Of a stretch of DNA of 29,465 nucleotides, positions 4,699 through 29,465 are shown one piece after another. A model generated the notes under the pieces. That model ran no database searches and was not told where the DNA came from. It saw nothing but the letters and a program-made list of their open reading frames with translations. This stretch comes from a virus. The position numbers and the translations under genes are program-made. Where the stretch lies: the IMG/VR virus record IMGVR_UViG_3300017760_003428, positions 1 to 29,465 of that record; one strand, written 5' to 3'. Position 1 is the stretch's first letter; the number at the start of each line of letters is the position of its first letter.

Positions 4699-4707
4699 GG
4701 AGAAAGT

Positions 4708-4959: not shown

Positions 4960-4984
4960 CACAGACTGAAAGGCATTGCCATAT

Positions 4985-5916: not shown

Positions 5917-5925
5917 GAGAAAGTT

Positions 5926-6579: not shown

Positions 6580-6589
6580 CAGGAGAAAA

Positions 6590-6928: not shown

Positions 6929-7485
6929 ACATATTCGTACTAGATAAGGATCCTGTGTTGGCAGCTGAGTATCACTGTGACAAACATTGTGTCAAGATGA
7001 TTCTAGAAGCTGGACAGATGCTCTGTGTTGCACATTGGATGGGTGCTTTAAGGTCTGTCAACAAAGAACTCGGTGATTTTAAGAGAGTACGAGAAGCTAA
7101 AGCATATGCAATTGATTATGCAGACCCTTCACTTATCCCCCCATGGACACTTACACATACAAGGCATCCGTGCACAATCTGGACTAGTGAGAATACAGGC
7201 AACTACAAATGGCATGCCAAGCTTATGAGGTCTCTTTTAGATCAGTATACTAAACGCTATCAAAAGCATCACAAGTCAGAAACCGTCTATGAATGGTTAT
7301 CATCAAAAGTTCCGTACGGAATTCCTAAGTCACTAATGACAGATCACCCACAGTGTATGCCTGACGAATGCAAAGTCCCTAATGATCCCGTCGCAGCTTA
7401 TAGAAACTATTATCACCAGCACAAAGCCTATATGGCAAAGTGGAATAAAGGTCCGACTCCTGACTGGTGGCAGCAAAAAAAATAA
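6925..7485 (+). CDS. phage conserved protein, CDKH motif
   Basis: 186 codons, coupled by ATGA to the DCC gene. The start MNIFVLDKDPVLAAEYHCDK and the following HCVKMILEAGQML belong to a type often seen in tailed phages and annotated as hypothetical. Conserved-looking His/Cys/Trp residues (CDKH, HPCTIW, NYKWH) suggest a nucleic-acid enzyme. I see a loose likeness in helix order to pyrimidine-dimer glycosylases, which would fit the uvsE operon, but key residues cannot be matched with confidence. Ends in a basic WWQQKK tail. Confidence 0.65.
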   Translation: MNIFVLDKDPVLAAEYHCDKHCVKMILEAGQMLCVAHWMGALRSVNKELGDFKRVREAKAYAIDYADPSLIPPWTLTHTRHPCTIWTSENTGNYKWHAKLMRSLLDQYTKRYQKHHKSETVYEWLSSKVPYGIPKSLMTDHPQCMPDECKVPNDPVAAYRNYYHQHKAYMAKWNKGPTPDWWQQKK

Positions 7486-7582
7486 AAAAAAGTTCTATAA
7501 AAACTTATAAAACATGGCTATACAGCGTATTATTAATTCACGTTCAAAAGAACGGTATCTAAACAACAAGGAGAAAAGATAC

Positions 7583-7819
7583 ATGAGTAACGGAAACTAT
7601 TTCAACGAGAAGAGCACCACCCGATTTGATTTCGGTGTATACCGCAACGCAACCGCCAAGAAGGCAGGAAGCAACATGCTGACGATCAGCACCCGTCCTT
7701 ATGAGGGCCAGCAGTACTCTGTCGGTACGACCACCATTAGCATGTCAATTCGTGAGGCCAAGACTCTTCAGAGTTTCCTCAATGCTTCACTAACTAGCGA
7801 CATCGTTCATAACGACTAG
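7583..7819 (+). CDS. small phage protein (78 aa)
   Basis: ATG at 7583 is chosen because AAGGAG stands 8 bases before it; an in-frame ATG at 7514 has none. Contains TISMSIREAKTLQSFLN, a beta-strand plus helix unit common in small tailed-phage proteins. Codon use is richer in C-ending codons than its neighbours and an efficient terminator follows, so it is probably well expressed. The leader (7486-7582) has a hairpin CGTTC-AAAA-GAACG at 7541-7554 and a possible promoter TTATAA/17/TATTAT ending near 7534. Confidence 0.7.
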   Translation: MSNGNYFNEKSTTRFDFGVYRNATAKKAGSNMLTISTRPYEGQQYSVGTTTISMSIREAKTLQSFLNASLTSDIVHND

Positions 7820-7841
7820 AGCTAGCTTATTAAGCTAACTG

Positions 7842-7877
7842 AAAAGCCGAGGCCTCCACCTCGGCTTTTCTTTTTTA
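7842..7877 (+). terminator. rho-independent terminator
   Basis: An 11-bp stem (AAAAGCCGAGG at 7842-7852, CCTCGGCTTTT at 7859-7869) with a 6-base loop, followed by CTTTTTTAT. Ends the unit before the FKBP gene. Confidence 0.95.
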
Positions 7878-7969
7878 TATATCTTGTACATCTCATTACA
7901 TGGGGTTACATTTAGTATGTCGATTAGGACAGCAACCAATAAAAAAGGTAGAATAGAGTTTTGAGCAAA

Positions 7970-8410
7970 ATGGAAAATGGACAAGTTGTAAGTGTGCACT
8001 ACGTAGGGACTTTTAACGACGGGACGGAATTTGATAGTTCACGTGCCCGGGGAGAGCCATTGACGTTTCAGTTAGGCTCAGGACAAGTAATCCCTGGTTT
8101 TGATTCTGCAGTTTCTAGTTTGAACGTAGGCGAAACCGTGGATGTTCATCTAGAGGCATCTGAAGCGTACGGTGAAACGATCCCGGAGGCATTCCAGGAA
8201 GTTCCACTTTCAATGTTTCCTGAGGACTTTGAGTTTAAGGTGGGCGCGACAGTATACGGCCAGCGAGAAGATGGCGGTCAAATGATGGCTCAAATCACGT
8301 CTGTGGGCGATGAAACTGTCGGTCTAGATCTTAACCATCCGATGGCTGGAAAAGCACTTAACTTTAATATTGAATTGGTAGAAGTCGGCGCAACGCAAGA
8401 CAATACTTGA
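7970..8410 (+). CDS. FKBP-type peptidyl-prolyl isomerase, SlyD/FkpB-like
   Basis: 146 codons from ATG 7970; an in-frame TTG at 7961 is an alternative and neither has a strong ribosome-binding site. The FKBP half is clear: VVSVHYVGTFNDGTEFDSS, then FQLGSGQVIPGFDSAV and EASEAYGE. The inserted 'IF' flap (VPLSMFPEDFEFKVGATVY) and return MAGKALNFNIELVEV are the SlyD-like arrangement. It speeds prolyl isomerisation and can act as a chaperone. It lacks the His-rich metal tail of SlyD. A phage copy may assist virion folding. First of a series of small genes separated by the same RNA hairpin. Confidence 0.92.
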   Translation: MENGQVVSVHYVGTFNDGTEFDSSRARGEPLTFQLGSGQVIPGFDSAVSSLNVGETVDVHLEASEAYGETIPEAFQEVPLSMFPEDFEFKVGATVYGQREDGGQMMAQITSVGDETVGLDLNHPMAGKALNFNIELVEVGATQDNT

Positions 8411-8418
8411 TACATAAA

Positions 8419-8464
8419 CCGCAGGAAGGCACGGGTTGAAATGTTTCTAATAGGTGCCTAACCC
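8419..8464 (+). repeat. intergenic hairpin element, copy 1 (divergent)
   Basis: CCGCAGGAAGGCACGGG, then a longer loop, then AGGTGCCTA. Stem AGGCAC (8427-8432) with GTGCCT (8454-8459). Unlike copies 2-4 it can also pair GGGTT (8433-8437) with AACCC (8460-8464), an alternative fold. Sits 8 bases after the FKBP stop. A (CA)n run follows at 8470-8480. Confidence 0.8.
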
Positions 8465-8493
8465 ATTAACACACACACACAAAGGAGAAAAAA

Positions 8494-8697
8494 ATGGGTG
8501 ATAAGAATAAGAGTGGTTACGAACTACGAAGTGAATTGCTAGGAATGGCAATGGGAATCTGCCAGGAGCGTGTTCATCGCGCATTTGAGAATGAGCATAT
8601 GAAGCCAGAAGGCACTCGAAATGCAATTCCATCATTCACGACTGAAGAAGTGATTGATGAAGCAGAAAAGTTGTATAACTTCGTACAGCAAAAGTAA
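8494..8697 (+). CDS. small phage protein, NKSGYELR type (67 aa)
   Basis: AAAGGAGAAAAAA before the ATG. Sequence reads as two helical parts: NKSGYELRSELLGMAMGICQ and TTEEVIDEAEKLYNFV. This pattern recurs in small proteins of T4-like marine phages, as far as I remember them; function unknown. Flanked on both sides by the repeated hairpin element, like the cold-shock and H1-like genes. Confidence 0.75.
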   Translation: MGDKNKSGYELRSELLGMAMGICQERVHRAFENEHMKPEGTRNAIPSFTTEEVIDEAEKLYNFVQQK

Positions 8698-8710
8698 ATT
8701 AGAGCAAATA

Positions 8711-8742
8711 CCGCAGGGAGGCACGGGTTTACAGGTGCCTCA
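8711..8742 (+). repeat. intergenic hairpin element, copy 2
   Basis: CCGCAGGGAGGCACGGG then TTTACAGGTGCCTCA. Stem GAGGCAC (8718-8724) with GTGCCTC (8735-8741), 10-base loop GGGTTTACAG. ATTTTTAAT follows, so this copy could also terminate some transcripts. Confidence 0.85.
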
Positions 8743-8763
8743 TTTTTAATAAAAAGGAAGATA

Positions 8764-8976
8764 ATGAGTCTAGGTACAGTAAAATTTTTCAATGTCAGCA
8801 AGGGATTTGGGTTCATCACCCAGGATGAAGGTAAGAAGGATTTCTTCTTTCATGTCTCCGAGCTTCAAGGTTCAACAATTAATGATGGAGACAGGGTCGA
8901 ATTCGATCTTGGTGAAAGTCAAAAAGGACCATGTGCTGTCAACGTACGTGAATCATACGCGCACACAGCACAGTAA
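8764..8976 (+). CDS. cold-shock domain protein (CspA family)
   Basis: 70 codons, the full length of the family. RNP-1 KGFGFI and RNP-2 DFFFHVS are intact in the OB-fold order GTVKFFN, KGFGFI, DFFFHVS, GDRVEFDL. It binds single-stranded RNA/DNA and melts RNA structure. AAAGGAAGATA precedes the ATG. Between two copies of the structured hairpin element, which is notable since its product unwinds RNA hairpins. Confidence 0.96.
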   Translation: MSLGTVKFFNVSKGFGFITQDEGKKDFFFHVSELQGSTINDGDRVEFDLGESQKGPCAVNVRESYAHTAQ

Positions 8977-8986
8977 GTAATTACTT

Positions 8987-9018
8987 CCGCAGGGAGGCAC
9001 GGGATTACAGGTGCCTCA
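8987..9018 (+). repeat. intergenic hairpin element, copy 3
   Basis: CCGCAGGGAGGCACGGG then ATTACAGGTGCCTCA. Stem GAGGCAC (8994-9000) with GTGCCTC (9011-9017), loop GGGATTACAG. Begins 10 bases after the cold-shock gene stop. Confidence 0.85.
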
Positions 9019-9045
9019 CTTACTTATATACAAAAGGATAATACA

Positions 9046-9243
9046 ATGGATAACAATACAAATACACCAGACACGCTTACTAATATGATCACACTTCTAG
9101 AAGAAGTGCGAACTGATTACAACAAGTTTTATGTTGATGGTAACGCCTCCGCCGGAACTCGAGTCCGCAAGGCAATGCAACAAATCAAGACCGACGCCCA
9201 TACTGTTCGAACTCATGTTCAATCGACAAAGAACGGCAGCTAA
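9046..9243 (+). CDS. histone H1-like (Hc1-type) small protein
   Basis: 65 codons, AAAAGGATAATACA before the ATG. The core KFYVDGNASAGTRVRKAMQQ followed by IKTDAHTVRTHVQ matches the short bacterial histone-H1-like family of Bacteroidetes, Chlamydia and some phages, where the motif 'GN..AGTR.RK..Q.IK' is typical. Two amphipathic helices; likely compacts DNA. It lacks the long Lys/Ala tail of Chlamydia Hc1. Preceded by hairpin copy 3 and followed by copy 4. Confidence 0.75.
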   Translation: MDNNTNTPDTLTNMITLLEEVRTDYNKFYVDGNASAGTRVRKAMQQIKTDAHTVRTHVQSTKNGS

Positions 9244-9254
9244 TTAGGTGCGCG

Positions 9255-9286
9255 CCGCAGGGAGGCACGGGATTATAGGTGCCTCA
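9255..9286 (+). repeat. intergenic hairpin element, copy 4
   Basis: CCGCAGGGAGGCACGGG then ATTATAGGTGCCTCA. Stem GAGGCAC (9262-9268) with GTGCCTC (9279-9285), loop GGGATTATAG. The loop differs from copy 3 by one base. Confidence 0.85.
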
Positions 9287-9306
9287 TCTACTTGGAGGGT
9301 CTTCCT

Positions 9307-9438
9307 ATGGAACGACCAAAAGACAAGCCGTGGATTGAGTTTGCAAATAATGTAACATTCATGGTGATTGCATGCTCTATTGTATACGGATCTTTGGTTC
9401 GTGGCTACGTACGCAATAAGTTTAAAAAGAAGAATTAG
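9307..9438 (+). CDS. single-pass membrane microprotein (43 aa)
   Basis: TTGGAGGG lies before ATG 9307. Reads MERPKDKPWIEF, then a hydrophobic segment (VTFMVIACSIVYGSL) and a basic end (VRNKFKKKN): a single transmembrane helix with positive-inside tail. Fifth small gene of the hairpin-separated series. Function unknown. Confidence 0.7.
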   Translation: MERPKDKPWIEFANNVTFMVIACSIVYGSLVRGYVRNKFKKKN

Positions 9439-9453
9439 ACTAAGCGTACGCGC

Positions 9454-9483
9454 TTGAACATCCTTAAAGGCGCTGGGTATAAT
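9454..9483 (+). promoter_or_regulatory. promoter for mgtC-like gene
   Basis: TTGAAC (9454-9459), 18 bp, GGG then TATAAT (9478-9483), preceded by ACGCGC as in the GTGCAA family. The start codon at 9489 falls on or next to the expected transcription start, implying a leaderless message. Confidence 0.75.
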
Positions 9484-9488
9484 ATAGC

Positions 9489-10148
9489 ATGCTATTTGAA
9501 CCTTACATGGGTATTGTCTGTGCCGCGGCACTTGGTTCTTTGATCGGCCTCGAAAGAGAATTACACGGTCAGCCGGCAGGTCTACGTACGCATATGATCT
9601 TAGCAGTAGGTGCTTCACTTGCTGCGATATTAAGCATCTCGTACTCTCAATTTCTATCGAATCCTGAAATGCCTTCCGATCCTGGTCGAATTGTGGCACA
9701 AGTGGTAAGCGGCGTTGGCTTCTTAGGAGCTGGTGCGATCATGAAGATGGGTGTAACTGTTAAGGGGCTGACGACAGCAAGTTCTCTCTGGACTACTGCT
9801 ATCGTCGGGATCGCATGCGGAAGTAAATACTACGACATCGCGGTTTTTACAGCAATCATGGTGTTGGTCATCTTAACAGTGATTAACTACCTTGAAAGCT
9901 TCTTTCTTACCACATACAAGGCGCATACCCTCAAGATCACGCTAAACGACCGGCCAGGTATTGTTAATGAGATTCGCGAAATGCTTACAGCGTACAAGGT
10001 CAAGGTCGTATCACTAAACGCGAGCATGCCTAACAAGGAAACGCTTAAGCTGGAAATGATCATTCGAAAGCCGGCTGACCTGGGCATGGATAAGGTCATC
10101 AACATTGTCAATTCGATGGAAGAATCATCTAGCATGGCGATAAGATGA
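9489..10148 (+). CDS. MgtC/SapB-family inner-membrane protein
   Basis: 219 codons. N-terminal membrane domain with family motifs: AAALGSLIGLERELHGQPAG, LRTHMILAVGAS, VSGVGFLGAGAI and GLTTASSLWTTA; four to five hydrophobic helices. The C-terminal 75 residues are a cytoplasmic ACT-like domain (LKITLNDRPGIVNEI). MgtC proteins restrain F-type ATP synthase and support growth in low magnesium in intracellular bacteria; the phage role is unknown but could be control of host energy metabolism. No ribosome-binding site is visible; the start sits where transcription should begin. Confidence 0.9.
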   Translation: MLFEPYMGIVCAAALGSLIGLERELHGQPAGLRTHMILAVGASLAAILSISYSQFLSNPEMPSDPGRIVAQVVSGVGFLGAGAIMKMGVTVKGLTTASSLWTTAIVGIACGSKYYDIAVFTAIMVLVILTVINYLESFFLTTYKAHTLKITLNDRPGIVNEIREMLTAYKVKVVSLNASMPNKETLKLEMIIRKPADLGMDKVINIVNSMEESSSMAIR

Positions 10149-10167
10149 CAGGAGCATATTTATTCAT

Positions 10168-10485
10168 ATGATCACACTATCAAATGCAGCTGCTAAAAGA
10201 GTAAAAGAGTTAATCGAAGCCAACGGTCATGTTGGTCTACGACCCGGAGTCCAGGGGGGCGGATGCTCTGGATTTTCGTATACACTTAAGTTTTCCGACG
10301 GTGCCACTGACACTGACAAGGTTCTTGAGTCTAACGGAGTCACTATCCACATTGACAAGAAGAGCTACCTCTATCTAATGAATACTGAAATAGATTATGT
10401 CGAAGAAAATCTTCAAGCCGGATTTCAGTTTATTAATCCCAACGCAAAGAGAACATGCGGATGTGGTGAAAGTTTTAGCATTTAA
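10168..10485 (+). CDS. A-type iron-sulfur carrier (IscA/ErpA/HesB-like)
   Basis: 105 codons, the family length. The three cluster-binding cysteines are present: GGGCSGFSY (Cys33) and TCGCGESF (Cys97, Cys99), around the typical fold (ITLSNAAAKRVKELI). It would carry and deliver Fe-S clusters. Similar genes are known in T4-like cyanophages. AGGAGCATATT lies before the ATG. The next gene begins at the base after its stop. Confidence 0.93.
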   Translation: MITLSNAAAKRVKELIEANGHVGLRPGVQGGGCSGFSYTLKFSDGATDTDKVLESNGVTIHIDKKSYLYLMNTEIDYVEENLQAGFQFINPNAKRTCGCGESFSI

Positions 10486-13802: not shown

Positions 13803-14891
13803 ATGGACATTCAAACTTTCAAAGCCGTAGCCTCAAAGCTCCCCCCAGAAATTGCCGTGCTTATGCGTGGCCCAACGGGTATCGGTAAGTCCCACCTGGC
13901 TCGAGCTGCAGCAGACGAGCTGGAGCTTCCTTTCATCGACGTCCGACTCTCCACGATGAGTGAGGGTGATGTTGGTGGTTATCCTGACATCGAGGGTATG
14001 AAGGACACAGGCGTGATGACGTTCTGCATGCCTTCTTGGTTCGTTCGAGCTACCCAAGAGCCAGTGGTTCTGATGCTTGACGAGATGAACCGCGCTCTTC
14101 CTGGCGTACAGCAATCAGCCTTCCAGCTGGTGCTTGACCGAGAGCTTGGCAACGACAAGGACGGTAACCCCTATCGTCTTCACCCAGAGACTCGGGTATT
14201 TGCCGCAGTAAATGCAGGCGCTGAGTATGATGTGAATGACATGGACCCGGCTTTGCTCCGACGTTTCTGGACTATCGACCTGGAGCCTACCAACGCTGAT
14301 TGGATTGAGTGGGCAGAGGGTAACGATATCGATGACGTCATTATCGACTTCATCCGTCAGTACCCCGCTCACCTTCGAGTTGATGTGGCTACCGTTGAGC
14401 CTGGTACGATTTGCCCTAACCCGGCGTCGTGGCATCGCCTCAACGATTCCCTCGCTCACATGGGATGGTCACCTAAGAACGATGCTATCGCTGGTGGTGA
14501 TTGCCCTCCTGGATTCTACGCTGTCGCTCAAGGCTTCGTAGGTACAGAGGCTGCTATCTCTCTTGCTACGTTCGTCAAGGGCTACGAGCTCGTGGTGACT
14601 GCAGAGGATGTGCTTGAACGATGGGACGAGGTCCAGGACCGAGTGAAGGAGATGAACGCTTCGGATCAAGCTACGGTTATCGATCGGCTGGCTACACACT
14701 GCAAGGATAACAAGTGGAGTGACAAGCAGGCCAAGCGAATTGCTGGATTCTCCGAGGAGCTTGGTGGCGAGATGCTCATCGCGCTTTGGAACGGTATCTC
14801 ACAGAGTGGCAACCTGCCTAACATCCAAAAGGTTCACAAGCTGATTGGTTCACGGGTGGTCACGGTCGTTCAAGAAAGCCGTAACGCTTAG
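13803..14891 (+). CDS. MoxR-type AAA+ ATPase
   Basis: 362 codons. Walker A GPTGIGKS (residues 23-30), Walker B VVLMLDEMNRA (Asp93, Glu94), sensor-1 Asn137 in VFAAVNAG, and an arginine-finger region DPALLRRFW (about 148-156). The order and spacing are those of MoxR/AAA_5 ATPases. Such ATPases act with VWA-domain partners to insert metals or remodel complexes; the VWA metallopeptidase at 1-1269 is the likely partner although 12.5 kb away, and the two share a similar C-ending codon style. AAGGAG precedes the ATG. The C-terminal helical part is family-typical but not diagnostic. Confidence 0.93.
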   Translation: MDIQTFKAVASKLPPEIAVLMRGPTGIGKSHLARAAADELELPFIDVRLSTMSEGDVGGYPDIEGMKDTGVMTFCMPSWFVRATQEPVVLMLDEMNRALPGVQQSAFQLVLDRELGNDKDGNPYRLHPETRVFAAVNAGAEYDVNDMDPALLRRFWTIDLEPTNADWIEWAEGNDIDDVIIDFIRQYPAHLRVDVATVEPGTICPNPASWHRLNDSLAHMGWSPKNDAIAGGDCPPGFYAVAQGFVGTEAAISLATFVKGYELVVTAEDVLERWDEVQDRVKEMNASDQATVIDRLATHCKDNKWSDKQAKRIAGFSEELGGEMLIALWNGISQSGNLPNIQKVHKLIGSRVVTVVQESRNA

Positions 14892-20516: not shown

Positions 20517-20801
20517 ATGACTGTTGATATTGGTATCGGTGATCACGTTCGATCTTTTGACTTTTCTACTTCACCTGGTGGGCGCGACCTTGAAGGTGAA
20601 CGTGCATGCTATGTAGAGGGTAGAGTTGAAGAACTAGTTACTATCGAAGGCAGCCTTCGATATCGTATTCTAGTTGAGCGTGATGTTTTCGGCGGGGAGG
20701 ATTCTACTGTTCGGGTAGGTCGCTATATGCATCCTCCCGTTAATGGTACCGCGCGGCTGATCGGTGGTGCTTCTGTTACTAACTTTGTAGAGTTGTTATA
20801 A
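20517..20801 (+). CDS. FDF/PPVNGT-family phage protein, paralogue 1 (94 aa)
   Basis: First gene behind its promoter and hairpin. GDHVRSFDF, LEGERACYVEGRVEEL, RYRILVERDVFGGE and PPVNGTARLIGG are shared, in the same order, with 26388-26675, so the two are clear paralogues. The alternation of strands suggests a small beta barrel. I believe similar proteins occur in other large phages; function unknown. Confidence 0.8.
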   Translation: MTVDIGIGDHVRSFDFSTSPGGRDLEGERACYVEGRVEELVTIEGSLRYRILVERDVFGGEDSTVRVGRYMHPPVNGTARLIGGASVTNFVELL

Positions 20802-21742: not shown

Positions 21743-21961
21743 ATGAACATTGGTAATCTCGTCACTTTCAATCATCTTCCTACCCCCAACACACCGGGAG
21801 CTCCGAGCTCTGCTCAGCCCGGTGTAGGAACAGTCGTCAAGGCACGTCACGAAGATGATGTTGTTTTTAAGGGTGATATGTGGTGTGACGTTCTTTGGCC
21901 ATGTGGTCAGGTGACCAAGTGTTTCAAGAAAGATCTTAGTACTATTGAAAGGGTCAAGTAG
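21743..21961 (+). CDS. SH3-like mini-protein (72 aa)
   Basis: ATG 21743 has AGGAG before it; upstream in-frame starts fall in the structured leader. Begins MNIGNLVTFN, the family pattern, with a Pro/Ser-rich loop inserted (PNTPGAPSSAQPG), then GTVVKARHEDDVVF and CDVLWPCGQVTK. Function unknown. Confidence 0.75.
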   Translation: MNIGNLVTFNHLPTPNTPGAPSSAQPGVGTVVKARHEDDVVFKGDMWCDVLWPCGQVTKCFKKDLSTIERVK

Positions 21962-22727: not shown

Positions 22728-23096
22728 ATGGCAAGAAAACGTCGATCAGACCGGTATCACCTAATTTACCAGCTTACCGCCCCTAGTGGTGATAAGTACA
22801 TTGGCGTGACGTTTGTTCGAGGTGACTCGCGTAGCATGAAAGCTAGAAAAGCTTCTGCAGAAGCTAGGTATAAAGCACACTGCAGAAACGCTATGCACTA
22901 CGGCCATGAGACGATTCTTTGCAAGACTCTTCGTGAAGTAGGCCCGGAAAACATGGATCGTAAAGTTCTAGAAGTTATCCGAGGCAAAAAGGCTGTTCAT
23001 CAACGAGAGAGAGAACTTATTGCTGAGATTCGACCTGAACTTAATATGGAGGGCCTTGGAAGAAAGGTCAATAGCATTTCCCAGGAGGCTGCATAA
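22728..23096 (+). CDS. GIY-YIG nuclease-superfamily protein
   Basis: 122 codons. LIYQLTAPSGDKYIGVTF gives the two GIY-YIG strands (the first Gly replaced, YIG intact). EARYKAHCRNAMHYG supplies the Arg/His helix, KVLEVIRGKKAVHQRERELI the catalytic-type Glu, and PELNMEG the terminal Asn. Short, basic and complete for the catalytic domain only, like free-standing phage GIY-YIG proteins related to homing endonucleases. Coupled to the following gene by TAATG. Confidence 0.8.
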   Translation: MARKRRSDRYHLIYQLTAPSGDKYIGVTFVRGDSRSMKARKASAEARYKAHCRNAMHYGHETILCKTLREVGPENMDRKVLEVIRGKKAVHQRERELIAEIRPELNMEGLGRKVNSISQEAA

Positions 23097-23302
23097 TGAA
23101 AGTCGGTGACGTGATTAAGCTAAATGTCGGCGCGGTGAATGCTCAAGAATTGACATCACCGTATGTTATTCTAATGGAGAAGATTTCACGATCTGATGGA
23201 TTAGAATACGACTGGGGTTGTTTATCTGGTGATCGATATATTGTTCTGGGGCGACAAATTGAGGGTGGCCACATCGAGGTAGTCAGTGAAGTGGGTTGCT
23301 AA
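23096..23302 (+). CDS. MKVGD mini-protein, SH3/KOW-like (68 aa)
   Basis: First member of the array: starts ATGAAAGTCGGTGAC (MKVGDVIKLN), ends HIEVVSEVGC. Internal strands YVILMEK and YIVLGRQ. The 3' end keeps a GAGGTAGTCAGTGAAGT version of the array junction, from which a membrane microprotein starts in another frame. Family function unknown; small beta barrel inferred. Confidence 0.75.
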   Translation: MKVGDVIKLNVGAVNAQELTSPYVILMEKISRSDGLEYDWGCLSGDRYIVLGRQIEGGHIEVVSEVGC

Positions 23303-23399
23303 TTTAACACCTAGTCCAGATAGCTATTTCTGGTGGGTGCTACTATCTTTAGGCGTCGCGCTTTGGCTGCATGCTCAATACTTTAGAAGAGAAAAATGA
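23286..23399 (+). CDS. membrane microprotein, GTG start (37 aa)
   Basis: GTG 23286 overlaps the previous gene by 17 bases and uses its GAGGT as ribosome-binding site at the same spacing as other array junctions. Reads VKWVANLTPSPDSY then a hydrophobic helix (FWWVLLSLGVALWLHA) and a basic end. Confidence 0.55.
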   Translation: MKWVANLTPSPDSYFWWVLLSLGVALWLHAQYFRREK

Positions 23400-23423
23400 T
23401 GCTTAAATGCAAAGGGTAAAATT

Positions 23424-23501
23424 ATGTTAGAGGGTTTTGTTATTACTGCAGTGTTCTTCGGAACTTGCTACCTTATAGGGTATGTGATTTACGGTGGATA
23501 A
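23424..23501 (+). CDS. membrane microprotein (25 aa)
   Basis: AAAGGG lies 7 bases before ATG 23424. Nearly all one hydrophobic helix (FVITAVFFGTCYLIGYVI). Ends just before the ligase start. Small but with a proper start. Confidence 0.45.
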   Translation: MLEGFVITAVFFGTCYLIGYVIYGG

Positions 23502-23505
23502 CAGC

Positions 23506-24759
23506 ATGCAAAGTGAGTCATATATGAAAGTATCAGATATCTTAGATCAGATTGTCTCAACCCGTGGAAGTATCGCGAAGACAAACATTCTTAAAGCACA
23601 CGCTGATAACGTCTGGCTGCAGAAAGTATTGTGCTACGGCCTTAACCAAATGATGCCATTCCACATTGTAAAAGTGCCCCGGGTAAAGAATGATGAAAGA
23701 TCGCCAAGGCTGACAGAGAACATCAGCTGGTCACACTTTTTTCACACAGCAGACAAATGCGCTTCCCGTGTTATTACTGGAAATGAAGCTATCAATAGCA
23801 TGCATGAGGTATTTAAGGGTTGCACAGCTGAAGAAGAAAAGTGGATGCGAAAAATACTTAAAAAGCAACTATCAATTGGTGCCTCCACTAAAACTGTTAA
23901 CAAAGTTTTCCACGGATTGATTCCTACATTCGACGTAGCATTAGCACAGAAGTTTGAGGAAAAGCGCCTTAATGGCAAAACAGAAGTTGCAGTCGAACCA
24001 AAGCTTGATGGCATTAGGTGTTTTGCAATTGTAGAAGATGGCTCAGCTTTACTTTATGCACGATCAGGAAAGCTTATTTCTAATTTTGACTCTACGATCG
24101 GCACAGAACTATCTACTCTACCAGATGGCTGCTACGATGGCGAGATTATGGGAGAAGACTTTATTGCTCTCATGCGCCAAGCATATAGAAAAGAGAACGT
24201 CGTTACTAAAGGCACTTATCTTTCACTGTTTGATTACATTCCCATGGAAGAGTGGAAGACACGAGAAGCAGTCATAACGTGTCGAGCGCGTTATGAGCTG
24301 CTAGCTAAAAACTTAAAAGAAGCCGGCAAACTCAGCTACCTTAAATGCATTCCACGATACATCGCGAATGCAAACTATGGAGATATCAAGGCGTGGCATG
24401 ATGAGTTTGTCTCAAAGGGTTTTGAGGGTGCAATGATTAAAGATTTAGATGCCCCTTACAAGTTCGGACGAGGATACGAGGTAATGAAGCTCAAGGCGTT
24501 TCACGATGTAGATCTGACTGTTGATCGTCTAGAAGAGGGAACAGGAAAGCATGCAGGACGTCTTGGTGCGGTTGTTGTGAGCTATAAGGGAACTGAAGTT
24601 AAAGTAGGTTCTGGGTTTACTGATGAGCTCCGTGAATCAATTTGGAGTGATCCTGATAGTTTTGTTGGTCGTATGGTTGAGGTAAGATATCAAGAAGTGA
24701 CTCCAGACGGCTCACTAAGATTTCCAACATTTGTTTGCTTTAGAAACGATAGACAATAA
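23506..24759 (+). CDS. ATP-dependent DNA ligase
   Basis: 417 codons from ATG 23506 (GGTGG upstream); in-frame GTG 23494 and ATG 23524 are alternatives. Nucleotidyltransferase motifs are intact: EPKLDGIR (motif I, catalytic Lys166), DGE in CYDGEIM (III), EGAMIKD (IV), MKLKAF (V), then an OB-fold domain (LGAVVVSYKGTEVKVGSG to VRYQEV). The enzyme seals DNA nicks; similar in size to T4/T7-type phage ligases. It would finish UvsE-started repair and lagging-strand synthesis. Embedded in the mini-protein array rather than in a replication operon. Confidence 0.95.
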   Translation: MQSESYMKVSDILDQIVSTRGSIAKTNILKAHADNVWLQKVLCYGLNQMMPFHIVKVPRVKNDERSPRLTENISWSHFFHTADKCASRVITGNEAINSMHEVFKGCTAEEEKWMRKILKKQLSIGASTKTVNKVFHGLIPTFDVALAQKFEEKRLNGKTEVAVEPKLDGIRCFAIVEDGSALLYARSGKLISNFDSTIGTELSTLPDGCYDGEIMGEDFIALMRQAYRKENVVTKGTYLSLFDYIPMEEWKTREAVITCRARYELLAKNLKEAGKLSYLKCIPRYIANANYGDIKAWHDEFVSKGFEGAMIKDLDAPYKFGRGYEVMKLKAFHDVDLTVDRLEEGTGKHAGRLGAVVVSYKGTEVKVGSGFTDELRESIWSDPDSFVGRMVEVRYQEVTPDGSLRFPTFVCFRNDRQ

Positions 24760-24769
24760 CAGGAGGATC

Positions 24770-24997
24770 ATGATTGAGGTAGGCAATTTAGTAAATGTAA
24801 CTGAGCAGCGGGGTGCCGGAGATTTCTATCGTAAGACTCCGCTAGGGCTTGGTGTCGTGTTAGACGTTGAGAAGACAGATGACTTAAATTTCGCCGGCAT
24901 TGGTCCATTTAATTTAGGTGACAATGTAATCGTGTATCTATGTTCTTCAGCAGAAGTGAAGTACTTTACGAATAGAAGCCTTGAGGTGATTCAATGA
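24770..24997 (+). CDS. MKVGD-type mini-protein (75 aa)
   Basis: AGGAGGATC before ATG 24770. Starts MIEVGNLVNVTEQ, ends YFTNRSLEVIQ; middle GLGVVLDVEK and NVIVYLCSS are the barrel strands. The end GAGGTGATTCAATGA gives the ribosome-binding site and the start of the next gene. Confidence 0.75.
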   Translation: MIEVGNLVNVTEQRGAGDFYRKTPLGLGVVLDVEKTDDLNFAGIGPFNLGDNVIVYLCSSAEVKYFTNRSLEVIQ

Positions 24998-25230
24998 ATT
25001 GCTGGCCGGCTTCTACTGATACTTTTTTGACTGAATTTGCGGGTGATGTTAACGTCGGTGATCTTTTGATCATTAAACCGGGCATGATGCTTATTGAGCC
25101 GGGCGGCCCTGTAATGGTCTTAGAGGCAGACAACATTCAGGGCATATACGAGATAATGTACACTAGAACCAACTATACTGTTGGTTGTGGTAGAATCGAT
25201 ATTCAAGAGGTTTTTAGTGAAAGTCGGTGA
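24994..25230 (+). CDS. MKVGD-type mini-protein with N-terminal extension (78 aa)
   Basis: ATGA overlap start. About 18 extra residues precede NVGDLLIIKPGMM; then PVMVLEADNI and YEIMYTRTN strands. Ends FSESR, the C-terminus dictated by the overlap with the next start. Confidence 0.72.
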   Translation: MNCWPASTDTFLTEFAGDVNVGDLLIIKPGMMLIEPGGPVMVLEADNIQGIYEIMYTRTNYTVGCGRIDIQEVFSESR

Positions 25231-25411
25231 CCTAGTTAAAATGAAGTACTCCATGTTCTGGATACTCAAGAAAAAACAGCACCCGCATTATACTGAGCAG
25301 CCTCTTATTGTGATGGAATTGGCCTACAATGCTGTCAAGATATTATACCCAGACGGCAGTATAAAATCTGACCTTGTTGAGCACTATGAGGTCATCAATG
25401 AAGGTAGGTGA
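25217..25411 (+). CDS. MKVGD mini-protein, GTG start (64 aa)
   Basis: GTG 25217 at the array junction (GAGGTTTTTA then GTGAAAGTCGGTGA), giving VKVGDLVKMKYS. Strands PLIVMELAYN and VKILYPDGS; ends VINEGR. Overlaps both neighbours by 14 bases. Confidence 0.75.
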   Translation: MKVGDLVKMKYSMFWILKKKQHPHYTEQPLIVMELAYNAVKILYPDGSIKSDLVEHYEVINEGR

Positions 25412-25601
25412 CGTTGTAATGTACACAGCCGAAGACTCATACTCCAAGTGGTTTTATGGCCAAATCGCGGTCGTGGAATCATACACAGAGTTCGGCTCAG
25501 ATGGTTTTGCACACTGCAGAGTAAAATGGATGCATCCTGTTCCTTACTTTGATAGACATGCAACTATCTCTGATTTTCGAGCAGATAGATTTACGTCATA
25601 G
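25398..25601 (+). CDS. MKVGD mini-protein (67 aa)
   Basis: Junction GAGGTCATCA then ATGAAGGTAGGTGA; MKVGDVVMYTAE, GQIAVVESYT, CRVKWMHPV. Unlike its neighbours it does not end in the junction sequence; its stop runs into the minus-strand MarC gene (11-base overlap). Confidence 0.75.
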   Translation: MKVGDVVMYTAEDSYSKWFYGQIAVVESYTEFGSDGFAHCRVKWMHPVPYFDRHATISDFRADRFTS

Positions 25602-26184
25602 CCTTCGTTGCAAAATCAATACTAAGAACTAGTGAGTTAATTAGTATCTTCATGCCTATGGCAATCAGGAGTATTCCAAACACTCTTTCTATGATTGTTA
25701 TTCCTACAATCCCTAGTTTTCTTTGAATCCAGTCAGCTGACTTTAAGAAGACATATATTACTATAGAGTTTAAAACAATGCCTGCTATTATAACACTATC
25801 GGGAAGCTCTTGAGTAAGTGACATAATGGTTGACAACGTCCCGGGTCCAGCAATGATAGGAAATGCAATAGGAAATATTGATGCCGGCACAGGATCAGGA
25901 TTAGTGTCTAATTCTATCCCTAACACCATCTTTACACCGAAATAAAGAATTAACATTGCCCCTGCTAGCGCAAAATGAAACGTCTCAATACCCAACAATC
26001 TAAACAGAGTCTGTCCTATAAACAGAATGGATATCATGATGACTGTTGCTATCACAGTAGACTTAGCAGAATCAATCTTTCCGTTTTCTTTTCTAAGCCT
26101 AATAACTAGCGGTACATTTCCTGGCATGTCAATGACTGCAAATAGAGTTAAAAAAACTGTCAACACACTTAAAACTAGTTCCAT
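25591..26184 (-). CDS. MarC-family integral membrane protein
   Basis: 197 codons, the size of the MarC/UPF0056 family. Six hydrophobic helices; family motifs FLTLFAVIDMPGNVPLV (usually 'IDPxGxxP', here IDMPGNVP), FGVKMVLGIEL, and IAFPIIAGPGTLSTIM (the 'PLxxGPG' signature). A GGGGG run lies about 10 bases before its ATG on the minus strand. The biochemical role of the family is unsettled. It is convergent with the plus-strand array, the only minus-strand gene beyond the lipoproteins, and looks inserted. No clear promoter is seen in 26185-26300. Confidence 0.9.
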   Translation of the reverse strand: MELVLSVLTVFLTLFAVIDMPGNVPLVIRLRKENGKIDSAKSTVIATVIMISILFIGQTLFRLLGIETFHFALAGAMLILYFGVKMVLGIELDTNPDPVPASIFPIAFPIIAGPGTLSTIMSLTQELPDSVIIAGIVLNSIVIYVFLKSADWIQRKLGIVGITIIERVFGILLIAIGMKILINSLVLSIDFATKAMT

Positions 26185-26304
26185 TTTAAACTGCCCCCTA
26201 TATTTCTGATGCAGCTAACTATAATCGTACTATTCATATGTAATCAGATTAAATTTAGAGTTTTCAGTGCTGTTACTAGTTTGTAACTTTTATTCATTCT
26301 TCGA

Positions 26305-26334
26305 GTGCAAGACTAAGACATTGTGGTGTATAAT
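26305..26334 (+). promoter_or_regulatory. GTGCAA-family promoter
   Basis: GAGTGCAA with GTGCAA at 26305-26310, 18 bp, TATAAT (26329-26334). Leader hairpin GATGGG (26349-26354) / CCCATC (26363-26368), then AAGGAG. Confidence 0.88.
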
Positions 26335-26387
26335 ATAGGCATAGAGAGGATGGGGAATGGCTCCCATCGCAAACAAGGAGAAATCAC

Positions 26388-26675
26388 ATGACCGCTATCC
26401 CTACACTCACCGGGCCCCTCGTTGGAGATTATGTCCGAGCTTTTGATTTTGATGGTGATAAGGAGCTTGAAGGTCGTCGAGCATGCTATATGGAAGGTCA
26501 GATCACAGGCCTTGTGCAGATTGAAGGATGCTGGCGATATAAAATCGAAGTTCGTAAATCTGTCTTCAGTGGTGAGGCTCGAACAGACTTTCCTGCTATT
26601 GTCTACCCACCTGTTAACGGTACTCCTCGATTGTTTGGAGGCGTCTGCGACGGTGTAGAGGTGATTAGTGTTTGA
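26388..26675 (+). CDS. FDF/PPVNGT-family phage protein, paralogue 2 (95 aa)
   Basis: GDYVRAFDF, LEGRRACYMEGQITGL, RYKIEVRKSVFSGE and PPVNGTPRLFGG match 20517-20801 in order and spacing. Like that gene it is the first after a GTGCAA promoter and a leader hairpin. Its end GAGGTGATTAGTG provides the next start. Function unknown. Confidence 0.8.
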   Translation: MTAIPTLTGPLVGDYVRAFDFDGDKELEGRRACYMEGQITGLVQIEGCWRYKIEVRKSVFSGEARTDFPAIVYPPVNGTPRLFGGVCDGVEVISV

Positions 26676-26856
26676 GTTTATTATGAGCCTTTTTAAGACA
26701 GGCCCAAGCTCAAAGATTAGAAAGATACGAGATCGCAAGTACAAAGAAGCCGTTCAGCTTCAAAGAAACGGCAAACTTAGAGAATACGCAAAGATTATGA
26801 AAGAAATCAAAGCACTTGAAGATGAATATATTAAGGTGACTAATGAAAGTAGGTGA
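26668..26856 (+). CDS. small helical basic protein, GTG start (62 aa)
   Basis: GTG 26668 is chosen because GAGGTGATTA precedes it at the array spacing; ATG 26683 is the alternative. Not a barrel: a Lys/Arg-rich helical protein (KIRKIRDRKYKEAVQLQRNG, KIMKEIKALEDEY) ending TNESR from the junction. So unrelated genes also use the junction. Confidence 0.65.
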   Translation: MFEFIMSLFKTGPSSKIRKIRDRKYKEAVQLQRNGKLREYAKIMKEIKALEDEYIKVTNESR

Positions 26857-27079
26857 TCTAGTACGTGTAAAATGGACTAGGCGTGTTAGTCAAATGAATA
26901 GCGACAATATTAGAAAAGTATGGGCGATAAATAACACACCTTTGCTTATTGTCGATATGCCTGTTGATCCTGCCCATCCAAACTTTCTTCCGAGAGTTTT
27001 CGTGATTAACGGCGGAAGAAAAGAAAAGATGTATACAGCTGATCTAACTACGAGAATGTGGCATGATGCAAGTCGGTGA
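26843..27079 (+). CDS. MKVGD mini-protein (78 aa)
   Basis: Junction AAGGTGACTA then ATGAAAGTAGGTGA. MKVGDLVRVKWTRR, PLLIVDMPVD, PRVFVINGGR strands; ends DASR in the next overlap. Confidence 0.77.
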   Translation: MKVGDLVRVKWTRRVSQMNSDNIRKVWAINNTPLLIVDMPVDPAHPNFLPRVFVINGGRKEKMYTADLTTRMWHDASR

Positions 27080-27260
27080 TTTAGTGATGTTGTCTTATAA
27101 CTACAGCCACGCGTCAGTGGTTCAGGACTGGGGCTTCGGATTAATAGTCTCAGAAGATGTTCCTGGTGGCAATCAGGTTAAAGTAATCTGGCCACAAAAG
27201 TCGGGGAAGATGAGTACATTACTCAAGTCACGTATGGAGGTAGTCAATGAAGGTCGGTGA
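27066..27260 (+). CDS. MKVGD-type mini-protein (64 aa)
   Basis: ATG 27066 by family alignment (MQVGDLVMLSYN); ATG 27063 directly precedes it. Overlap ATGCAAGTCGGTGA of 14 bases, but no GAGGT here. GFGLIVSEDV and VKVIWPQKSG strands; ends VVNEGR. Confidence 0.75.
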   Translation: MQVGDLVMLSYNYSHASVVQDWGFGLIVSEDVPGGNQVKVIWPQKSGKMSTLLKSRMEVVNEGR

Positions 27261-27432
27261 TCTTGTTAAGTTTAAGGGAGAAAATGAACATTGCCGAGGT
27301 GCTGCGAAAGGGCTGTTAGTCGAAATCCGCGAATCAGCTGGTGGCACCTATGGCGTTATGTGGGATTTTCTCGACGGCCGGACCGGTTGGCAACGTGAAT
27401 TCGAGATTGAGGTGATTGATGAAAGTCGGTGA
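27247..27432 (+). CDS. MKVGD mini-protein (61 aa)
   Basis: Full junction GAGGTAGTCA then ATGAAGGTCGGTGA. MKVGDLVKFKGEN, GLLVEIRESA, GVMWDFLDGR; ends VIDESR. The most compact typical member. Confidence 0.78.
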   Translation: MKVGDLVKFKGENEHCRGAAKGLLVEIRESAGGTYGVMWDFLDGRTGWQREFEIEVIDESR

Positions 27433-27631
27433 CTTGGTATCAACAAAGTCTAGAAACTTTATAGGAGTGATCATTGAGTCTAGAGTAATGGTCGCTGCGC
27501 GCGGAATAACAACTGAACTGGCTGAACTTAGAGGTAAAAACTTAAACAGTCATCAAGTTTATTGGGGAAGCTACAAGGTAAAGAAGAACCCAGTATGGGT
27601 AAAAGAACGTGACTTAGTGAGGGCAGCATGA
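27419..27631 (+). CDS. MKVGD mini-protein (70 aa)
   Basis: Junction GAGGTGATTG then ATGAAAGTCGGTGA; a TTG lies directly before the ATG. MKVGDLVSTKSRN, GVIIESRVMV, VKKNPVWVKERDLV; ends RAA, with ATGA to the next gene, so the junction type changes here. Confidence 0.75.
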   Translation: MKVGDLVSTKSRNFIGVIIESRVMVAARGITTELAELRGKNLNSHQVYWGSYKVKKNPVWVKERDLVRAA

Positions 27632-27846
27632 ATAGAAATAATGGCCAGCTGTGGCACCGCGGTGTTTCTAGGAGCGGTATTAATCCTCTCCCGATCGTAT
27701 TTCAAGTGGGTGATCTGGTAAGATACATGAGCAGAGTTGTACTGATTGTTGATACAGATATCGACGGACCCTGGGTATATGGTATAGAACTTGGCGAAAT
27801 AGAAGTCGCAAAATATAAACGACACGCGCTAAGGGAACTTGTCTAA
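27628..27846 (+). CDS. MKVGD-type mini-protein with N-terminal extension (72 aa)
   Basis: ATGA overlap start. About 25 basic/polar residues, then FQVGDLVRYMSRVVLIVDT, and VYGIELGEIEVAKY. Last gene of this unit; 33 bases separate it from the next promoter. Confidence 0.7.
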   Translation: MNRNNGQLWHRGVSRSGINPLPIVFQVGDLVRYMSRVVLIVDTDIDGPWVYGIELGEIEVAKYKRHALRELV

Positions 27847-27879
27847 CGCAATAAAAATTTAAATTTAATGTGTAAGCTG

Positions 27880-27908
27880 GTGCAAATATTTCCCGCATAG
27901 GGTATAAT
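27880..27908 (+). promoter_or_regulatory. GTGCAA-family promoter
   Basis: GTGCAA (27880-27885), 17 bp ending GGG, TATAAT (27903-27908). Short leader with GAGGAGGCAAGG. Confidence 0.86.
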
Positions 27909-27934
27909 ATTACCATAGAGGAGGCAAGGAAAAA

Positions 27935-28249
27935 ATGGCAAACGAATTCAACATCAAGGTCGATCGGGTAAAGATTCACTGGGCATCTAAAAGCATGCAC
28001 AATTGCGACGTACAGTGTGCCCTCTGTGAACGACCAATTGCCAACCGGGTAACCACTCACGTCGCCAAGGCTGTGGGAAAGAACGAGCAAGGAGAAACAA
28101 TCTTTGTTCCAGTCCCTGAAAATGAACTTCCAAATGATCCGGTTGAGTGGGGAACATTTATTGGCCCTCACTGCGGCAAGCTTCTTCCCAAGACTCATAG
28201 AGTTACTTACAAGAAGCTTCTTAAAAACCACAGCGACACCTGGTGCTGA
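27935..28249 (+). CDS. hypothetical protein with possible zinc site (104 aa)
   Basis: GAGGAGGCAAGG before the ATG. CDVQCALCERPI near residue 24 and GPHCGKLL near 83 could together bind one metal (four Cys); many Lys. Alternatively a small RNA-associated protein. Not recognised. Confidence 0.7.
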   Translation: MANEFNIKVDRVKIHWASKSMHNCDVQCALCERPIANRVTTHVAKAVGKNEQGETIFVPVPENELPNDPVEWGTFIGPHCGKLLPKTHRVTYKKLLKNHSDTWC

Positions 28250-28251
28250 AT

Positions 28252-28389
28252 ATGAAGAAGTCGAAAACTAAAAAGATCACAGCACGAAACTGGCATGCAG
28301 TTTCAGCTCATTTTCGTACTAGTGCCGGCGGTCATAAGGACAAGACAAAGTATAATAGAAAAAACAAGCACAAGAAGGTTTGGTCATGA
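28252..28389 (+). CDS. very basic small protein (45 aa)
   Basis: ATG 28252 two bases after the previous stop, no separate ribosome-binding site, so coupled. Contains KKSKTKKITARNWHAVSAHF and GGHKDKTKYNRKNKHKK: almost half basic residues, likely nucleic-acid binding. ATGA overlap with the next gene. Confidence 0.6.
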   Translation: MKKSKTKKITARNWHAVSAHFRTSAGGHKDKTKYNRKNKHKKVWS

Positions 28390-28574
28390 GTAATATCATA
28401 AGAGTTGGGTCGCTAGTACATGACTATGATTATGGTATGAACGGTATTGTAGTAGAAGATGAATGGACATTTACAGACAGTGACGATCAAACGCATGCGT
28501 GGGAGTTCAGGGTGCTACTAGAGTCAGGTGAAATCGTAGGCTCAGACACTTTCAGCTTGACACTAGTATCATAA
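28386..28574 (+). CDS. SH3-like mini-protein (62 aa)
   Basis: ATG 28386 with AAGG upstream. IIRVGSLVHDYDYGMNGIVV and FRVLLESGEIVG follow the array pattern with Ser in place of Asp in 'VGD'. Ends without the junction motif. Confidence 0.7.
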   Translation: MSNIIRVGSLVHDYDYGMNGIVVEDEWTFTDSDDQTHAWEFRVLLESGEIVGSDTFSLTLVS

Positions 28575-28609
28575 CAATTACACTTTACTAAAACGACCTG
28601 GAGGTCATT

Positions 28610-28732
28610 ATGCAAAATAGAAACAAGAAAATTGTCGACGCTCAAAAGAGAGAAGCAATCATTGAAGCAGTATGTGGTGTGGCAATGCTCCCTTTGCTCT
28701 ATGTTTTCGTTGTCTTGGTTATGTGCATGTAA
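28610..28732 (+). CDS. single-pass membrane microprotein (40 aa)
   Basis: CTGGAGG before ATG 28610. Basic helical N-terminus (NRNKKIVDAQKREAIIE) then one hydrophobic helix (GVAMLPLLYVFVVLVMCM). Confidence 0.65.
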   Translation: MQNRNKKIVDAQKREAIIEAVCGVAMLPLLYVFVVLVMCM

Positions 28733-28746
28733 AGAAAGGAAATCAC

Positions 28747-28977
28747 ATGCAACAAGGTGACATGGTAAGATTTGCAAAGTGGGAAGAGGTCGATATCAGA
28801 AATAGCAAGAAGTGGCCTAGTACACCCAAACGTCATGTTGGAGTTCTAATTGAACATGACAAGCTTATGGGTGTTGTTCATATTCTATACGAAGGAAACA
28901 TTCTTAAGCTAAGATCTGTGTTTGCTGAGAAAGCTGGACGTAAAGATTTTAAGGGTGAGTTGATTAATGAAAATTGA
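28747..28977 (+). CDS. MKVGD-type mini-protein (76 aa)
   Basis: AAAGGAAATC before ATG 28747. MQQGDMVRFAKWEEV, HVGVLIEHDKLMGVVHILYE; ends LINEN at a junction variant (GAGTTGATTA then ATGAAAATTGA). Confidence 0.72.
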   Translation: MQQGDMVRFAKWEEVDIRNSKKWPSTPKRHVGVLIEHDKLMGVVHILYEGNILKLRSVFAEKAGRKDFKGELINEN

Positions 28978-29113
28978 AGACATTAAGATTGGTGACACTA
29001 GGCTTGGCAACTGGAGTGATGTCATGGATTCACATCCGTTTTGTCGACTTATGTGGAAATTTAATCTTATCGTGCTACCCACGATGGTTTTTCTTGAGGT
29101 CTGGTATTTCTAA
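28967..29113 (+). CDS. membrane microprotein with MKI-GD start (48 aa)
   Basis: Overlaps the previous gene by 11 bases at the junction variant. MKIEDIKIGDTRLG recalls the array start, but the rest is a hydrophobic helix (FNLIVLPTMVFLEVWYF): possibly a mini-protein remnant fused to a membrane segment. TAATG to the next gene. Confidence 0.6.
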   Translation: MKIEDIKIGDTRLGNWSDVMDSHPFCRLMWKFNLIVLPTMVFLEVWYF

Positions 29114-29316
29114 TGAAAGTCGGTGATCTGGTAATAAGAAAAAATGTTATGAGTGGAGCTGAACAGCGTGAAAGATTAGGAGCTGGTATTGTCCTTAAAA
29201 AAACGATGACCGGTCGACCAGAACACCCATGCATTACAGTGTTTTACTCAAAGGTTGGAAAGACATATGCTATTGCTGAGTCTTTAATGGAAGTCGTTTC
29301 AGAGGTAAAAAAGTGA
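29113..29316 (+). CDS. MKVGD mini-protein (67 aa)
   Basis: ATGAAAGTCGGTGATCTGG start with GAGGT further upstream. MKVGDLVIRKNVMSG, GAGIVLKKTM, ITVFYSKVGK strands; ends VVSEVKK at GAGGTAAAAAAGTGA, which starts the next gene. Confidence 0.75.
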   Translation: MKVGDLVIRKNVMSGAEQRERLGAGIVLKKTMTGRPEHPCITVFYSKVGKTYAIAESLMEVVSEVKK

Positions 29317-29396
29317 GTACCATGATTATGTACGTGATTTCATTCTGGTTGACTTGTTGGCTATTCCATGAAGGTTTTATCAAGGACCGACCATGA
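29313..29396 (+). CDS. membrane microprotein, GTG start (27 aa)
   Basis: GTG 29313 overlaps the previous stop (GTGA) with GAGGT at array spacing. One hydrophobic helix (MIMYVISFWLTCWLF) and a short basic tail. ATGA to the next gene. Confidence 0.5.
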   Translation: MSTMIMYVISFWLTCWLFHEGFIKDRP

Positions 29397-29465
29397 ATGC
29401 AGGAGACCTAGTTACAGCAGCCTGGGAAGATCATCCTGGTTTAGTTATTAAGGCTGTGAAAATAG
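29393..29465 (+). CDS. MKVGD-type mini-protein, cut by window end
   Basis: ATG 29393 in an ATGA overlap: MNAGDLVTAAWED, GLVIKAVKI continue to the edge. Shows that the array goes on beyond the window. Confidence 0.7.
   Translation, partial: MNAGDLVTAAWEDHPGLVIKAVKI

Follow-up and report, generated by a model that had tools for sequence, protein, structure and literature searches.

Phage genomes are mosaics of small genes without known function, and how an exchanged gene can come or go while its neighbours are spared is an old question; short boundary sequences have been proposed as sites of such exchange and are rarely found. Here we describe a short sequence, which we call the joint, that recurs between overlapping small genes of the virus record IMGVR_UViG_3300017760_003428. 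The window, by which we mean the whole stretch of DNA analysed, is this complete IMG/VR record of 29,465 bases. The window very probably holds one section of an array of single-domain KOW/SH3-like genes, hereafter units, that recombination shuffles in uncultivated T4-like phages.

Promoter-early stem-loops (PeSLs), reportedly described by Arbiol in 2010 and by Comeau in 2014, are intergenic promoter and terminator cassettes between unrelated genes. In T4-type phages they form a short repeat between small non-core genes and are tied to modular shuffling of those genes (PMC4503421). The joint is likewise a short repeat at small non-core genes of T4-like phages, and genes are exchanged at it. However, the joint differs from PeSLs as so described in being located inside overlapping coding sequence read in two frames rather than between genes, in carrying a ribosome-binding site, start and stop, in forming no stem-loop, and in linking genes of one protein family.

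In lambdoid phages, a short conserved sequence at module borders has been proposed as a site of homologous recombination (PMC3029335). A short shared sequence also marks the borders of exchange here, although in this case a single sequence, coded in two frames, is repeated many times in each genome. In cluster K mycobacteriophages, start-associated sequences (SAS) are repeats at the starts of small non-structural genes, are located upstream of many unrelated genes, contain a Shine-Dalgarno core, sometimes include the upstream stop codon, and were proposed to act in translation initiation (PMC3203893). The joint similarly places a Shine-Dalgarno site beside the start of small non-structural genes. 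In contrast to SAS, it runs about 20 nucleotides into the gene, and we observe rearrangement at it. Arrays of exchangeable small genes also recall integron cassettes, but the joint is coding and no attC-like folded site was found in the joints tested (no integrase search was made). In the open-licence literature that we searched, we found no paper with the motif MKVGDLV or on arrays of this type.

The joint and its coding in two frames

The original prediction listed five junctions in the window at which one stretch of about 24 bases would encode the end of one gene, form the ribosome-binding site of the next and supply its start. All five are present (Table 1), each start having been tested in the sequence, and at each the upstream frame is open for 59–81 codons with a stop that ends at +14 of the next start. 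Six neighbouring gene pairs in the window overlap by exactly 14 nucleotides. Five of these are the listed joints and the sixth, at 27066, has the tail HDASR and is without GAGGT. GAGGT, which encodes EV, is found in four of the five listed joints; the joint at 26833–26856 carries AAGGT and encodes KV. At start 29113 an open upstream frame ends NESR, the upstream gene call being ambiguous (28967–29113 or 28974–29126), and the start of the first unit (23096) overlaps the stop of the gene at 22728–23096. The pattern GANGTNNTNNNTGAAAGTNGGTGA occurs twice in the window and in none of 100 shuffles. No stem-loop is predicted in the five joints, whose folding is no better than that of shuffles (z from -0.34 to 1.28).

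A scan of 2.9 million viral contigs identified the joint with 20 fixed bases (GAGGTNNTNANTGAAAGTCGGTGA) in at least 120 IMG/VR stretches and a TAA/TAG version in 14; the reversed joint pattern gave no stretch in the same set. We collected 129 loci by means of the joint or of the ligase gene within the array, and called 1105 units in them by a motif rule. Neighbouring pairs in these loci overlap by 14 nucleotides in 465 cases, by 4 in 71 and by 20 in 30, counts of units and overlaps that are enriched by design because the loci were fetched by joint or ligase.

The consensus over 547 overlapping units is TGGAGGTNATCA-(A/G)TG-AAA-GTC-GGT-GA-TTTGGT, with conservation that reaches about +20 inside the gene, while unit tails vary with the neighbouring unit. 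The element GAGGTGATC, the exact complement of the 3' end of 16S RNA, also encodes E-V-I of the upstream unit. The stop of gene n is located inside the MKVGD of gene n+1, and its type tracks residue 5: D goes with TGA in 539 cases, N with TAA in 6 and S with TAG in 6. The glycine codon is GGT in 416 of 416 overlapping units, because the stop of gene n requires it. The valine codon is free, yet GTC is used by 82% of units with an overlap and by 61% of those without one, versus 20% for valine elsewhere in the units. Such sameness at the nucleotide level goes beyond that of the protein, as expected if exchange homogenises the starts, and may be increased by selection on translation initiation.

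The joint is also used by genes outside the family. Of the 580 genes with a stop at +14 of a unit start, 148 were not classed as units by the motif rule; among these 148, 68 also miss the family profile. Such guest genes end in ESR-like tails taken from the next unit, and some resemble GIY-YIG or MazG-like proteins, as judged by eye. The proposal that unrelated guests share the joint is upheld by the gene at 26668 and by the 68 non-KOW upstream genes elsewhere, but the two other candidates in the window, 23286 and 29313, are very short open reading frames (ORFs) and are the weakest cases.

Gain, loss and reordering of units

Near-identical contigs differ exactly at the joint. Loci L018 and L020, which are 99.8% identical over 73 kb, show a single large structural difference, a missing unit of 176 bp. 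Both read CGGCGAGGCATTTGGAGGTTATCA-ATGAAAGTCGGTGATTTGGT, followed by unit c15 in one and directly by gene c13 in the other, with 20 nucleotides identical at both starts. Between L061 and L074 one unit is swapped for another between the same neighbours (MKTGDLVRFKKH.. versus MKVGDLVRSGRG.., each ending EVISESR), and in L039 and L089 an identity of 97.7% begins 12 nucleotides before a unit start, the upstream units being different. These cases support the suggestion that each unit is a seamless module.

A comparison of junctions among related genomes, as the original prediction had recommended, places the ends of homology tracts (at least 95% identity) at unit starts. Right ends fall within -5 to +29 of a unit start in 22 of 22 cases, where the null gives 20%. 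For left ends, 20 of 24 are within -24 to +9, where the null gives 15%. In the contigs of L061 and L074 (G036 and G037), with a median core protein identity of 99.6%, order is kept in 30 of 31 cases in the core versus 6 of 14 among units (Fisher p=1e-4), and the reordered units are 88–99% identical in nucleotide sequence.

Neighbourhoods turn over in more distant pairs as well. Orthologous units have the same next unit in 45 of 51 cases at 95% identity or more, in 8 of 31 at 85–95% and in 5 of 34 at 75–85%, and ordinary genes at 85–95% identity keep their next gene in 7 of 7, a small control. The 87 downstream neighbours of 17 ortholog clusters belong to 84 distinct clusters (summed over clusters). 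Units 25217 and 25398 are adjacent in the window, while their L005 orthologs are parted by another gene of about 120 codons; L067 carries orthologs of 28747, 25398 and 25217 in that order, unlike the window. In four 185-kb genomes, which are too divergent for breakpoint analysis, most units are found within about 10–20 kb (circular ends allowed for), nearly all on one strand. These genomes have reciprocal best matches for 59–73 other genes, but for only 0–3 units.

A unit spans from ATG/GTG-AAA-GTC-GGT-GA (MKVGD, the entry to strand 1) to the last strand of the predicted barrel, whose EV(I) codons, GAGGT(GATC), double as the Shine-Dalgarno site for the unit that follows. Read one frame off, the first 14 bases of that following unit give the E-S-R codons and stop of the preceding one. 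Any two units, or any open frame in that phase, could then be joined at the shared stretch of about 20–35 nucleotides, and both genes would stay intact and translatable. We propose that recombination between copies of the joint, within or between phage genomes, allows units to be gained, lost, swapped and reordered. The shared stretch may itself be the homology used, whether by RecA/UvsX-type recombination, by annealing or by template switching during replication. All 15 of the 15 large contigs carry a RecA/UvsX-like gene, and UvsY was not found in a search made without a positive control. Since 20–35 nucleotides is short for strand exchange, annealing or template switching is to be considered as an alternative. 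The units are presumably co-transcribed and translationally coupled.

Ordinary mosaicism, in which illegitimate breaks occur anywhere and only those at gene borders survive, is an unlikely alternative but one with some weight. The joint would then reflect common descent of the units together with a need for a ribosome-binding site and coupled translation. Mosaicism at gene borders is the usual view for phages (PMC3029335), the overlap is also consistent with translational coupling, and some conservation is expected of a joint that encodes a conserved N-terminus. However, deletion endpoints are located inside 20 nucleotides of perfect shared sequence, conservation at synonymous sites extends to units that no upstream gene overlaps, and the same genomes keep their core order while the array is reshuffled.

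It is very improbable that the arrays are false, created by assemblers that joined different units at the repeated 20–24 nucleotides. The repeats are short and the contigs metagenomic, but the shared stretch is shorter than the usual k-mers of final assembly, similar arrays occur in contigs from many different metagenomes, a swapped unit is found with both flanks intact, and neither the coding frames nor selection on them is disrupted. An old tandem duplication, with later divergence and differential loss but no continuing exchange between genomes or positions, would suit the arrangement of units as head-to-tail paralogs on one strand, but it is the least probable reading because 23 of 31 orthologs at 85–95% nucleotide identity are followed by a different unit and units 88–99% identical occur in different order in otherwise near-identical contigs.

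Several points weigh against a recombination-shuffled array. All data are metagenomic contigs, and the list of clean events at an identity of at least 95% is short, with four entries. Selection against broken genes would also put breakpoints at gene borders, an effect that sequence alone cannot separate from homology. At the joints of the window itself no high-identity exchange is seen, and orthologs of its units elsewhere are only 40–66% identical. Not every adjacency has the 14-nucleotide form, as the 71 overlaps of 4 nucleotides indicate, some indels in the same genomes are unrelated to units (G034 and G035), and the locus-level control with ordinary genes is small (7 of 7).

Predicted fold, selection and possible role

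The units form one family of 55–78-residue predicted SH3/KOW-barrel proteins, with 962 of 1039 units matching a single profile at E<1e-3. AlphaFold2 models of unit 8 (predicted local distance difference test (pLDDT) 86.7) and unit 4 (pLDDT 86.2; KOW/SH3-like) show the same five-strand barrel, and for this reason the common fold that had been predicted for the mini-proteins is supported. The EV(I) of the joint sits in the last barrel strand in both models. The E-S-R tail is placed where that strand ends or past it, with low confidence in the first of the two.

When compared with solved structures, the profile matched the KOW domain of Spt5 best (E=6e-8), followed weakly by NusG, uL24 and MIB1. 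In a structure search archaeal Spt5 KOW domains came top (Z 8.0–8.4; best root-mean-square deviation 2.0, 54 residues aligned), with many SH3-like barrels scoring close behind. In their predicted fold the units thus resemble the KOW domains of Spt5, NusG and uL24 and the Tudor-like domains of phages, but they differ in being stand-alone proteins in arrays and in falling below Pfam thresholds. Searches of single units against Pfam and PHROG gave weak matches only, none of the scanned members matched a Pfam family convincingly, and no protein of known function matched more closely than at the level of a KOW/Tudor-like fold.

The ratio of nonsynonymous to synonymous substitution (dN/dS), pooled over 109 ortholog pairs with overlaps left out, is 0.18 and never exceeds 1. 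The units are therefore maintained proteins under purifying selection. A fast arms race by point mutation is ruled out by the same values, and novelty in the array comes from cassette content. The array does diversify, as had been suggested, by cassette exchange but not by rapid point change.

A nucleic-acid- or polymerase-linked role is plausible for the units. One tentative possibility is that they are KOW effectors which bind nucleic acid or polymerase and redirect host transcription or translation, or block defences, the array being an exchangeable repertoire. In both fold and sequence, the solved proteins closest to the units are the KOW domains of Spt5, NusG and ribosomal proteins, and orthologs of units are nearly absent between related phages that share 59–73 core genes. 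MotB of T4, an early protein that binds DNA, has been considered alongside KOW domains (PMC7827196). However, the mean net charge of the units is near zero, SH3-like barrels have ligands of many kinds, and neither Pfam nor PHROGs gives a functional match. We infer that the repertoire may act early on the nucleic-acid or protein machinery of the host, and that the array may serve host takeover or anti-defence.

Carriers of the array and genes of the window

The carriers tested are mostly T4-like phages, since gp23 is present in 17 of 25 records; 24 of the 25 have 8–35 matched units and one has none. Their closest cultured relatives by gp23, Flavobacterium phage immuto and Microcystis phage Mel-JY01, are distant. 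Five cultured T4-like phages contain no units, and an uncultured 484-kb phage has one weak unit match. Among 50,697 phage records, mostly isolates, none matched the 37-nucleotide joint well, and neither a nucleotide search of the array region against isolate phages nor a search with a real unit returned an isolate relative. Weak Acinetobacter phage matches (tblastn) were discarded, as the query was a hand-made consensus not taken from data. For two units of the window, searches aimed at close relatives returned no match.

Bacterial and archaeal genomes (257 Gb) contain eight joint stretches, every one in metagenome-assembled bins. A match in a WOR-3 chromosome from a metagenome-assembled genome (MAG; L138, CP070664.1) was rejected as probably mis-scaffolded phage DNA, the array being beside a gap of 100 N near bacterial genes. 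One contig of 101,404 bases is found both in IMG/VR (L060) and in a Halobacteriovorax MAG (L136, PBIO01000025.1), which is a possible hint of a host or a binning error. In cyanophage S-PM2 (AJ630128, 7463–7871) the ORFan-region genes p025 and p026 overlap by 14 nucleotides, with no KOW unit match there. A start-to-start deletion was also seen in a non-KOW family, between G034 (IMGVR_UViG_3300013115_000353, the record of L077) at oriented positions 75536–76407 and the near-identical contig G035. Two adjacent genes there both begin MKLLLENW..LNE, an N-terminus that presumably resembles the capsid-targeting sequence of T4, and the first was lost between start repeats sharing about 49 nucleotides.

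Thirteen related genes had been predicted between 23.1 and 29.5 kb of the window. The family profile, built largely from sequences of other phages, recovers 13 ORFs at E<0.01 in this range and one more, 28386, at E=0.012; beyond the range it finds members at 21743 and 15875 (Table 1).

Table 1. Joints, units and other genes of the array in the window
Feature	Position	Strand	Description
Joint 1	25207..25230	+	GAGGTTTTTAGTGAAAGTCGGTGA
Joint 2	25388..25411	+	GAGGTCATCAATGAAGGTAGGTGA
Joint 3	26833..26856	+	AAGGTGACTAATGAAAGTAGGTGA; AAGGT; upstream gene 26668–26856 is non-KOW
Joint 4	27237..27260	+	GAGGTAGTCAATGAAGGTCGGTGA
Joint 5	27409..27432	+	GAGGTGATTGATGAAAGTCGGTGA; 8-nt perfect match to anti-Shine-Dalgarno complement
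Extra unit beyond the predicted range	21743..21961	+	MNIGNLVTF; profile E=1e-6
Unit 1	23096..23302	+	MKVGDVIK..EVVSEVGC; profile E=1e-4; orthologs 48–52% in L024, L106, L035, L061
ATP-dependent DNA ligase within array	23494..24759	+	used for finding relatives
Unit 2	24770..24997	+	MIEVGNLV..LEVIQ; profile E=1.5e-5
Unit 3	24994..25230	+	N-terminal extension, internal VNVGDLL, tail ESR; profile E=0.0018; 14-nt overlap with unit 4
Unit 4	25217..25411	+	GTG start, MKVGDLVKMKYSMFW..YEVINEGR; orthologs 50–56% in L005, L080, L067
Unit 5	25398..25601	+	MKVGDVVMYTAED..; profile E=5.5e-7; orthologs in L005 (62%), L023, L067, L017, L096, L113
MarC-family membrane protein gene, interrupts array	25591..26184	-	PF01914 E=1e-32
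95-residue protein with GDYVRAF	26388..26675	+	outside family profile; L097 ortholog 52%
Guest gene	26668..26856	+	non-KOW, 62 residues, ends VTNESR; stop supplied by joint
Unit 6	26843..27079	+	profile E=1.2e-6
Unit 7	27066..27260	+	MQVGDLV..EVVNEGR; profile E=5.5e-14; 14-nt overlap with unit 6, no GAGGT
Unit 8	27247..27432	+	most typical unit; profile E=2e-15; L053 ortholog 53%
Unit 9	27419..27631	+	profile E=6e-9; L008 ortholog 54%
Unit 10	27628..27846	+	N-terminal extension, internal FQVGDLV; profile E=6e-4
Unit 11	28386..28574	+	IRVGSLV; borderline profile score E=0.012; orthologs in L010, L128 about 41%
Unit 12	28747..28977	+	MQQGDMV; profile E=2e-4; L067 ortholog 66%
Unit 13	29113..29316	+	MKVGDLVIRKN; profile E=3e-10; orthologs in L082, L038, L008 52–55%
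Unit 14	29395..29465	+	MNAGDLVTAAW, truncated by window end; profile E=0.002

The genes at 20517–20801 and 26388–26675 encode diverged paralogs of about 95 residues that have an SH3-like start motif and are outside the family profile. A repeated GTATAATAT..CATAGAG is located at 26328–26346 and 27902–27920, upstream of 26388 and 27935, and is perhaps a phage promoter that splits the array into transcription units. Elsewhere in the window, genes for a DUF2201 VWA/metallopeptidase (16–1269) and an AAA_5 MoxR-like ATPase (13803–14891) occur about 13 kb apart in the one phage. The region 3751–10485 contains host-like genes for a UvdE UV endonuclease, a DCC1-like thiol oxidoreductase, an FKBP isomerase, MgtC and an Fe-S cluster protein.

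The border sequence described here is visible, recurs many times within each genome and serves two reading frames at once. Since natural events of gain, loss and swap map precisely to it, exchange which spares the neighbours becomes directly testable. The units form an apparently undescribed, large family of exchangeable KOW mini-proteins, which may act on hosts. We lean towards the view that protein-coding sequence serves here as an exchange site, in which about 24 nucleotides read in two frames would provide stop, start, ribosome-binding site and recombination homology. If true, a large group of T4-like ocean phages, all uncultivated, would in this manner build combinatorial repertoires by shuffling a single-domain family, with the same door open to unrelated genes.

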